Origin: a virus
Direction: 5' to 3' (one strand)
DNA length: 29,311 bases
Virus record (IMG/VR): IMGVR_UViG_3300017992_000068
Coordinates: 1-29,311 of that record
Positions 5,479 through 24,502 of this stretch are shown here, one piece after another. The position numbers and the translations under genes are program-made. Each line of letters starts with the position of its first letter. Positions within the stretch are counted from its first letter, which is position 1. Below the pieces are notes generated by a model. The model worked only from the letters and a program-made list of their open reading frames with translations, was not told the DNA's origin and did no database searches.

Positions 5479-6189
5479 TTACTTTACCCACTTAGCATAT
5501 ACCTTGCCGCGGTAGCGCATTGCGGCGTATTGGCAGTAGCCCAACACCATCCAGAGATCGTTGCCATCGGGGAATGAACTGCCTCGTACAAGACATATAA
5601 CCTCGACCAATTCGCCTTTATTTAGGTGATATGTAACAGGGTTAGCAGTTCCTGGTCCAGTACGTATATTCAGGAACGGGTCAGCGGTGATTTCCGCAAC
5701 GGGCAACTCTGGAAACTGCGGTATTTCAATCTCAACTGGTTCCGGTTCCTCGTCAATGCACTTGACCAGGTATGGAGCCGGGTCGATTGGCACTCCATCT
5801 TTACGAAGTTCAAAGTGCAGGTGTGGTCCGGTGCTATTGCCCGTGTTGCCCAAATAACCAACAAAATCTCCGGCTCTGACATCCTGACCTTCGTCAACGA
5901 CAATATCTCTTAGATGGGCATAAATAGTCATAAAGTGAATGTTGTGAGCGATACGTACATGATAACCATAGCCAGTTTTAGCCCATCGCCTATCAGATAC
6001 AACCCCATCAGCCGAGGCAAGTACGGTTGTTCCCATAGGAGCGCCAAAGTCAACCCCCCCATAGTAATAAACGCCACTCGGACATGGACCAGGCTTATGG
6101 CACCACCCATTCACCTTTGCCCACTTCACATGCTCCGCAAACGTCTGTGTTATTGGAGCATTTGACGGGACTGGATATAAAAGTTTCAT
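5479..6189 (-). CDS. M23 metallopeptidase with SH3b domain, endolysin candidate
   Basis: 236 residues. Residues 41-140 match the LytM/M23 fold: '[20 protein letters not shown]', 'YAHL' (His92) and '[10 protein letters not shown]' (His123, His125). M23 enzymes cut peptide cross-links of peptidoglycan using zinc held by HxxxD and HxH. Here the first ligand position, normally His in 'HxGxD', is Tyr43, while Asp47 is kept; His31 might substitute, or activity may be altered. An acidic Pro-rich linker leads to a bacterial SH3 domain (about 166-236, '[19 protein letters not shown]') that would bind the wall. No signal peptide, so export needs a holin; none is recognised nearby. Ribosome site AAGGAG. 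It lies with early genes, not after the tail genes. Confidence 0.8.
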
Positions 6190-6935
6190 TGTGTCTCCTT
6201 ATCTTCTGGCATCCTCGTGTATTTATTTGTGATAATGCTCCGCAGGTTGGCATCCCGCAGGTCGGCATCCCGCAGGTCGGCACTCCGCAGGTCGGCATCC
6301 CGCAGGTCGGCATCCCGCAGGTCGGCATCCCGCAGGTCGGCATACCGCAGGTCGGCACCCTGCAGGTTGGCACTCCGCAGGTCGGCATACCGCAGGTTGG
6401 CATACCGCAGGTCGGCATACCGCAGGTCGGCATACCGCAGGTCGGCACCCTGCAGGTTGGCACTCCGCAGGTCGGCATCCCGCAGGTCGGCATACCGCAG
6501 GTCGGCATACCGCAGGTCGGCACCCTGCAGGTTGGCACTCCGCAGGTCGGCACCCTGCAGGTTGGCATACCGCAGGTCGGCACCGCAACACCAGCCCAGC
6601 CGGATAATGCGCCAGAACACACGTTTACTAACACGTTTCAAGCGGAGTTCCCTCACCCCTACTTTCTCCTTGCTTTCACCAATGATGCCTCGATACTCAC
6701 AAAACCACGGCCACCAACCGACAGGTGCGTATCGCGCGGATAGTTTCTTCATGACGTGCCACCTGCCCGCTCCACAATCCTTACCATCTGGTTCAGCAGG
6801 TTCGGGATGTGTGAGCCACGGACCCCACTTCTCGTCAGGTCTTGGCAGGGGATCTATGGTTTCACCCCCTTCGTATTCCGTCGCCCCGTACTGGTTCAAG
6901 AACTTCCAGCCGCGACCATCTATTTTTTCGGTCAT
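6186..6935 (-). CDS. Pentapeptide-repeat protein, longer copy
   Basis: 249 residues. The first ~115 form a Trp-rich domain ('[20 protein letters not shown]', '[20 protein letters not shown]') followed by a basic stretch ('[19 protein letters not shown]'). Residues 117-232 are about 23 tandem A(D/N)LRx pentapeptides, which fold into a right-handed quadrilateral beta-helix. It ends '[15 protein letters not shown]'. Some family members mimic DNA and protect gyrase; this one has no known target. It overlaps the endolysin start by 4 bases and is a tandem duplicate of the next gene upstream, with nearly the same ends. The 15-base codon repeat is so regular that other frames and the opposite strand stay open. 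Confidence 0.85.
6236..6585 (-). repeat. 15-base coding repeat array (pentapeptide array 1)
   Basis: About 23 copies of a 15-base unit, plus-strand consensus CCGCAGGTCGGCATA, differing at a few fixed positions (CCGCAG or CTGCAG; GTCGG or GTTGG; final CATA, CATC, CACT, CACC). Higher-order blocks repeat too, such as the 'ACCCTGCAGGTTGGCACT' junction seen three times. The near identity suggests recent expansion by slippage or unequal exchange. Confidence 0.85.
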
Positions 6936-7546
6936 TGTGTCTCCTTATCTTCTGGCATCCTCGTGTATTCGTTTGTGATAATGCCGCGCAGGTCAGCACC
7001 CTCCAGGTCGGCATACCGCAGGTCGGCATCCCGCAGGTCGGCATACCGCAGGTCAGCACCCTCCAGGTTGGCATCCCGCAGGTTGGCATTCCGCAGGTCT
7101 GCATACCGCAGGTTGGCATCCCGCAGGTTGGCACCCCGCAGGTTGGCACCCCGCAGGTCGGCATTCCACAGGACGGCATTCCATAGGTTGGAACCCTTAC
7201 ACCAACCCAACCGGATTACACGCCAAAACACACGCTTTGGTACAAGGCGCAACCGCAATTCACGGACCCCAACCTTTTTATCGCTCTCGCCAAAGATGCC
7301 TCGATATTCGACGAACCACGGCCACCAACCAATGGGCGCGTATTGTGCTGACAGTTTCTTCATCACATGCCAGCGACCAGAACCGCAATCCTTACCATCT
7401 GGTTCAGCAGGTTCGGGATGTGTGAGCCACGGACCCCACTTCTCGTCAGGTCTTGGCAGGGGATATATGGTTTCAACCCCTTCGTATTCCGTCGCCCCGT
7501 ACTGGTTCAAGAACTTCCAGCCGCGACCGTCTATTTTTTCGGTCAT
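6932..7546 (-). CDS. Pentapeptide-repeat protein, shorter copy
   Basis: 204 residues, paralogous to its downstream neighbour: the first ~115 residues are nearly the same ('[20 protein letters not shown]', '[20 protein letters not shown]'), and the C-terminus '[16 protein letters not shown]' matches. The pentapeptide part (about 118-190) is shorter, with around 14 units. The two copies have diverged more in the repeat region's edge ('[13 protein letters not shown]') than in the N-terminal domain. The start codon overlaps the stop of the 67-residue gene (TAATG), with GAGGAG upstream, so translation is coupled. Role unknown; the shared N-terminal domain suggests a common partner. Confidence 0.85.
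6983..7196 (-). repeat. 15-base coding repeat array (pentapeptide array 2)
   Basis: About 14 copies of the same 15-base unit as array 1, with more base changes (ATTCC, CTCCAG) and decay toward the 5' side of the gene. Array 2 looks older or less homogenised than array 1. Confidence 0.8.
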
Positions 7547-24092: not shown

Positions 24093-24102
24093 ATTTCCTC
24101 CT

Positions 24103-24153
24103 AAAAACAAAAAAGCGCAACCAGCACGGAATAATCCCGCGCGAATTGCGCTT
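24103..24153 (-). terminator. Intrinsic terminator upstream of the capsid gene
   Basis: On the minus strand AAGCGCAA/TTGCGCTT (24146-24153 with 24113-24120) with an inner GC-rich stem, followed by a TTTTTTGTTTTT run. It ends 11 bases before the capsid start codon, so it lies inside that gene's leader. It could end transcription from upstream genes or work as a regulated attenuator. Confidence 0.75.
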
Positions 24154-24250
24154 CGATACATCGAACTTTTGCGCCCCTGCGATTCCCTTTTCGCCCCACC
24201 CTCACCGGGTCTCTAGGGCTATCCTGTCACCGCAGGTACGTTATTCAACT
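24152..24250 (-). promoter_or_regulatory. Folded leader domain of the capsid transcript
   Basis: Reading downstream from the predicted start: CCTGCG (24231-24236) pairs with CGCAGG (24176-24181) and closes a 61-base domain. Inside, GCCC/GGGC and ACCC/GGGT form an arm with an uneven internal loop and a GGTGA end loop, flanked by GTGACAGGATA and GAAAAGGGAAT. Next comes GCGC, a near-perfect palindrome TTCGATGTATCGAA, then the terminator. The upstream GCGC can pair with the GCGC in the terminator's 5' arm, giving an antiterminator alternative. No known riboswitch class is recognised. Confidence 0.5.
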
Positions 24251-24256
24251 GTCGAT

Positions 24257-24284
24257 ATTATACCATAAATACAATACTATGCAA
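24257..24284 (-). promoter_or_regulatory. Promoter for the capsid gene
   Basis: TTGCAT, 16-base spacer, TATAAT on the minus strand, with TGG before the -10 (extended -10). It lies just after the stop of the 69-residue gene and would start about 158 bases ahead of the capsid ATG, giving the capsid block its own high-level transcript. Confidence 0.75.
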
Positions 24285-24292
24285 GCGGTTTA

Positions 24293-24502
24293 TTATGTTG
24301 GAAAAATTTCCACAGGTAAATTCAAATTCCCCAAATGTTCACCTGCATATTTACCGATATAATAGGCCGCCACAACAACCTCAATAGGATTTTCAAAATC
24401 AATCGGTTGTCCAAATATAGAACTCCTATCCATTCTACTAATTATCTTTTCATATTGTCTATCAATGTATCCTCGACGTTCCCTGTCAATAACCTCGCTC
24501 AT
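24293..24502 (-). CDS. Small protein before the capsid promoter
   Basis: 69 residues: 'VIDRERRGYIDRQYEKIISR', then 'PIDFENPIEVVVAAYYIGKY' and 'NLNLPVEIFPT'. Charged helix followed by an amphipathic one. Ribosome site GAAAGG. No family recognised. It is the last gene of the packaging transcript. Confidence 0.55.
   Translation of the reverse strand: MSEVIDRERRGYIDRQYEKIISRMDRSSIFGQPIDFENPIEVVVAAYYIGKYAGEHLGNLNLPVEIFPT

Follow-up and report, generated by a model that had tools for sequence, protein, structure and literature searches.

In transcription attenuation leaders, a promoter is followed by a structured domain, an antiterminator, one strand of which also belongs to an intrinsic terminator, and the Shine-Dalgarno sequence and start of the controlled gene, and the mutually exclusive helices covary. 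In the usual riboswitches the P1 helix itself competes in the switch, and in T-box leaders a tRNA holds the antiterminator closed. Cis-acting RNA switches are known for few phage structural genes. One candidate is the Mu-gpT-DE motif, a structured RNA proposed to lie ahead of a phage major-head gene and probably to act in cis. Its Rfam accession is RF03012 (PMC7657543). The put sites of phage HK022 each consist of two stem-loops of about 70 nt at the early promoters, with putL just downstream of its promoter, and cause read-through without protein factors; they belong to early operons, are present in two copies per genome, and act on the polymerase without overlapping a terminator (PMC9378689). 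In phage lambda, the late promoter pR' and the promoter-proximal terminator tR' lie ahead of the late genes, and Q depends on a site in the DNA together with a -10-like pause sequence in the initially transcribed region (PMC6606751).

Here we describe a leader with the plan of an attenuator in front of a phage capsid gene. As about 24 other phage sequences have this arrangement, with compensating base changes, in front of their capsid-protease genes, it likely represents an undescribed family of RNA switches, which likely control capsid production. No account of this RNA element was met in the literature searched, the coverage of which was incomplete.

Gene neighbourhood and elements of the leader

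The window, i.e. the whole stretch of DNA that was analysed, is a 29,311-base IMG/VR virus record with all genes of interest on the minus strand. Upstream of the leader lie the genes for the small and large terminase subunits, the portal (Pfam, E = 4e-37), a Mu-F-like protein, a neck protein and a 69-residue open reading frame (24292-24502, minus strand). The latter ends in TAATAA only a few bases before the capsid promoter, which leaves the promoter region little room between its two neighbouring genes. Downstream of the leader, the gene that the initial annotation had simply called the capsid gene is more exactly a fusion of protease, scaffold and major capsid, followed by a head-tail adaptor and a tape measure gene. 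Protease and capsid are encoded separately in L005, L006 and others. The capsid start is the ATG with AGGAGG before it; another ATG chosen by the open reading frame lister, at 24161, falls within the hairpin. Elsewhere in the window (6186-7546, minus strand), a tandem gene pair shares an identical N-terminus and carries long pentapeptide-like repeats that differ in length; the repetitive plus-strand reading frames of this region are shadows. Among assembled genomes, capsid relatives sit in Anaerolineae MAGs, in Herpetosiphon and in one Zipacnadia MAG, which makes a Chloroflexota host likely for the window phage. BLASTN searches with the leader and TBLASTN searches with the capsid protein against phage genomes gave no match.

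The extended -10 promoter, the closed 61-base domain, the palindromic hairpin and the terminator with a long U-run, all noted in the initial annotation, were located exactly as described (Table 1). Simple promoter and terminator scans had left these sites unlisted owing to their scan rules. The -35-like hexamer is weak, while TTGACA occupies this position in six relatives (L015, L016, L039, L132, L137, L524). The RNA 5' end is predicted at the A at 24250, which would give a terminated transcript of about 148 nt. The 186-nt leader folds with -72.2 kcal/mol, compared to -53.4 +/- 4.6 kcal/mol for dinucleotide shuffles (z = -4.1).

Table 1. Coordinates of the leader elements and the capsid gene in the window.
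Feature	Position	Strand	Basis
-35-like hexamer TTGCAT, weak; 16-nt spacer to -10	24279..24284	-	Sequence
Extended -10 TGGTATAAT	24257..24265	-	Sequence; most relatives have a TGnTAnnnT-type site here
Initially transcribed motif CAGTTGAATA	24242..24251	-	CAAYYRAATA-type motif in related leaders
Conserved RNA domain, 61 nt	24176..24236	-	Covariance model, covariation
Putative antiterminator hairpin GCGC-AAAAG-UUCGA(UGUA)UCGAA-GCGC	24148..24174	-	Architecture common to nearly all members; covarying 4-5 bp helix
Palindromic hairpin TTCGATGTATCGAA	24152..24165	-	
Intrinsic terminator hairpin, about -25 kcal/mol	24115..24151	-	Folding; terminator in 25/25 members
U-run TTTTTTGTTTTT	24103..24114	-	Sequence; last T 11 nt from ATG 24092
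Shine-Dalgarno AGGAGG, directly after U-run	24097..24102	-	Sequence
Capsid maturation protease-scaffold-major capsid fusion gene, 760 aa	21810..24092	-	PHROG 267 major head protein, E = 2.3e-5

A conserved RNA domain in capsid leaders

In the window the domain, closed at exactly its full length by CCTGCG and CGCAGG, comprises P1 (CCUGCGGUGAC/GGAAUCGCAGG), an internal loop AGGAUA/GAAAAG, P2 (GCCC/GGGC), a UAGAG bulge and P3 (ACCC/GGGU). Eight leaders including that of the window have A(A/G)GAUA and GAAAAG-type motifs in common, flanked by complementary sequences. A covariance model seeded with six of these recovered the two held-out copies at the same site, with E = 1.8e-5 for L031 and E = 0.002 for L039 (these E-values are rough owing to the short calibration). 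Pattern-only scans of DNA, which used no protein information, yielded copies in L224, L217, L516, L531, L536, L508, L534, L524, L527, L533, L522, L503, L514 and L341. All of them precede capsid-protease genes; in L514 a neck-like gene stands between the leader and the protease gene. Altogether, at least 25 copies (about 22 independent) were found in metagenomic phage contigs, each of the 25 lying in the leader of a capsid-protease or capsid operon and being followed by a terminator, most also having a promoter-like site. Every record, including one of 45.8 kb and those of 23 to 29 kb, holds a single copy, before capsid genes only. The family is surely larger than this count, since the viral scans were pattern-based and gave an incomplete list of matches. 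On the protease tree, the distribution of the domain needs about 10 changes, at least five of which are forced by well-supported branches; hence, it is patchy over a diverged family.

The consensus order is P1, AGGAUA, P2, a 5' bulge (AGAG-like), the P3 hairpin, GAAAAG and P1'. Between covarying helices, the internal loop of AGGAUA (AAGAUA in two copies) and a GAAAAG-type strand is near-invariant (n = 25), a conservation that is partly a product of the search patterns; in the last batch of copies the letters of AGGATAGC and GCGAAAAGG were set by the pattern, and the pairing of P1 was free. In the 25-row alignment 85.8% of the cells are paired compared to 56.4% after shuffling, where the pairing percentages, like the loop conservation, are biased upwards by members partly chosen by covariance model or loop sequence. 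Double changes were counted in 121 cells, compared to 42.5 +/- 5.6 in shuffled and 10-25 in slid controls, with the reservation that the alignment was model-fitted, which leans such counts. Changes on both sides occur in all 11 P1 pairs (25 sequences; an earlier run used 13 rows). A fresh RNAalifold prediction on the alignment fitted by the covariance model recovered nine P1 pairs, each with compensatory changes.

The initial annotation had not recognised the domain, and Rfam offered no match near threshold to the leaders of the window and 16 related loci, the riboswitch, PyrR site and Mu-gpT-DE models included; in this the leader differs from Mu-gpT-DE. Rfam matches at relaxed thresholds were chance only, and the sole real match to an exact 16-mer of the domain came from a near-identical contig. 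Searches of about 800 Chloroflexota genomes with the RNA models gave chance-level matches, and those inspected were not leaders. Weak covariance model matches in L093 and L203, as well as in L495, L548, L518, L512 and L515, were judged chance by their context. Two broader, structure-filtered patterns returned only known capsid leaders among the matches listed, the model later adding L341, and an improved model (R2) found no further copies in 100 relatives judged domain-less. Four leaders (L118, L067, L085, L078) follow the plan of P1, internal loop, P2 and P3 with other loop letters (AGGAAC/UUAAAG in L118) and are missed by the model; they are possible diverged relatives of the domain.

A putative antiterminator overlaps the terminator

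Directly after P1, every member contains a segment that can pair with the base of the 5' arm of its own terminator, usually enclosing a small hairpin. The resulting antiterminator has an outer helix of about 4 bp, then an A-rich bulge of 5 nt on the 5' side, an inner helix of 3-5 bp and a 4-nt loop, and it occupies 2-10 nt of the arm of the terminator. For the window, pairing is possible between GCGC at 24174-24171 and GCGC at 24151-24148, as the initial annotation had pointed out. The helix appears as GCGC/GCGC, ACGC/GCGU, GCAC/GUGC, GGUU/AACC, GUAC/GUAC, CAUAC/GUAUG or UGUGC/GCGCA. The segments fit their own terminator better than those of other members (permutation p = 1e-5, z = 5; p = 8e-4 without the GCGC helices), and none of 500 linker shuffles reached the observed mean pairing; an earlier version of this test had taken segments picked by eye. 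As the terminator arms must also stay paired, three strands change together, which is a sign of two mutually exclusive folds. Covariation of the helices, on which the attenuator plan of the initial annotation had been made to depend beforehand, is thus strong in both P1 and the antiterminator helix and supports that plan.

The median fold energy is -4.9 kcal/mol for the antiterminator hairpin and -25.3 kcal/mol for the terminator. The much stronger fold of the latter suggests termination as the default, and a stabilising factor must be assumed for read-through. Among 44 leaders, most of them domain-less, pairing with the terminator arm was not generally in excess (Fisher p = 0.82), which limits the claim of alternation to the domain-bearing leaders. 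Among the hallmarks of an attenuator, an intrinsic terminator between promoter and gene start is present, and a conserved alternative helix that shares a terminator strand is found in domain-bearing leaders only.

The promoter-terminator layout in capsid relatives

Scans with the capsid protein, followed by alignments of the capsid part and the protease part, gave about 110 non-redundant phage loci. A terminator hairpin stands just before the capsid-protease start in at least 50 of 108 relatives, the start codon typically lying 18-27 nt past the end of the called hairpin stem, and most of the terminator-bearing relatives have a TGnTAnnnT promoter-like site upstream of the stem. On these grounds the layout of promoter, leader, terminator, Shine-Dalgarno sequence and capsid gene is old and widespread. 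About half of the 108 relatives have promoter, terminator and capsid gene in this order, mostly without the RNA domain. Upstream of the terminator, CAAYYRAATA is present in 25 of 50 leaders (1.8% of random windows), usually 5 nt after the -10, and it is seen at the predicted transcript start of leaders both with and without the domain. Pairing of this conserved 5' end with the Shine-Dalgarno sequence, arms, loop or gene reached at best p = 0.019 in one of six regions, which was lost after correction.

Some relatives have minimal leaders (e.g. L004, L071, L161), and in some domain-less ones merely about 20-30 nt separate the predicted start from the terminator stem. Six short leaders without the AGGAUA domain (L027, L057, L185, L187, L053, L169) contain a single stem-(A)AGAG-hairpin-stem element, the 3' strand of which is the terminator 5' arm; this is perhaps a stripped-down antiterminator.

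Proposed mechanism and alternative explanations

Comparison of the leaders establishes, at the level of sequence, the promoter-like site, the domain and its covariation, the overlap of antiterminator and terminator, the terminator itself and the place before capsid-protease genes. Taken together we consider it probable that the leader is a cis-acting transcription attenuator of the terminator/antiterminator type before the capsid gene. Transcription would begin near 24250, and the 61-nt domain would fold first and the short antiterminator hairpin second. Unaided, the stronger terminator would reclaim its 5' arm, and most transcripts would end as an RNA of about 150 nt, 11 nt short of the capsid start codon. 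If the domain and the adjoining antiterminator were stabilised during passage of the polymerase, the terminator base would stay open and the capsid gene would be transcribed. We infer the direction of the switch, with termination by default and read-through when the domain is engaged, as well as a factor that acts on the domain and a tuning of capsid dose or timing. Candidate triggers are a protein of the phage or the host, a small ligand, or the RNA polymerase itself.

The leader shares the order of elements and the covarying exclusive helices with known attenuation leaders, but its target is a phage capsid gene, it stands outside the Rfam families, and its P1 does not overlap the antiterminator. 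As the two share no strand, the arrangement resembles leaders whose weak antiterminator is supported by a bound factor more closely than it does the usual riboswitch. More tentatively, the leaders could form a new class of RNA switch for capsid dosage, in which the AGGAUA/GAAAAG domain responds to some signal linked to the phage or to assembly and keeps the antiterminator closed in a T-box-like manner; such a signal may be a protein (capsid or protease), an antiterminator of the phage or an infected-cell metabolite.

The initial annotation had also brought up HK022 put, where the nascent domain and the second hairpin would bind the polymerase and only transcripts from this promoter would pass the terminator. 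Both are phage leader RNAs with an adjoining hairpin pair, here no more than about 15 nt from the predicted 5' end and of a different shape, and a strong terminator ahead. The anatomy nevertheless makes such an action unlikely: a single copy per record is found, before capsid genes only, whereas put stands at both early promoters, and the second hairpin and the terminator have a covarying strand in common, which put would not need. The persistence of promoter, short leader and terminator in many domain-less relatives, together with the conserved motif just after the -10, would instead suit a phage protein that loads the polymerase at the late promoter and carries it past the promoter-proximal terminator, as Q does at pR'-tR', the RNA domain being an add-on in some phages. 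On inspection, however, the initial motif AAYYRAATA does not fit the NANNAT -10-like pause element, and no such pause sequence is seen in the window leader; no Q-like protein turned up, short of a systematic search; an RNA domain plays no part in the Q system, and the covariation of domain and antiterminator would be left unexplained, so that we give this explanation little weight.

Two further explanations appear highly improbable. Being compact, structured and present in one copy, the RNA of about 150 nt with its strong terminator could serve as a small RNA, acting in trans or within the particle like a packaging RNA, with the capsid gene reached via read-through. Its strict place before capsid-protease genes and the overlap with the antiterminator point to control in cis, and many relatives keep the promoter-terminator layout with a minimal leader. 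These same minimal leaders, and the absence of general pairing between arm and leader over the 44 leaders, would be expected if nothing were regulated and the site held just an additional promoter for the capsid gene, with either a terminator to stop transcription arriving from upstream or a 5' hairpin to stabilise the capsid mRNA. Against this stand the covariation in domain and antiterminator and the position of the promoter upstream of the terminator, by which the capsid gene's own promoter would be attenuated. Ribosome-mediated attenuation was rejected, as the window leader has no start preceded by a Shine-Dalgarno sequence and no leader peptide is conserved across the members.

For the phages that carry it, an RNA family found only before capsid-protease genes would offer a direct handle on how the amount and timing of capsid production are set. 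With an aptamer-like domain separate from the antiterminator hairpin, this question may be addressed in vitro with one RNA and one polymerase.
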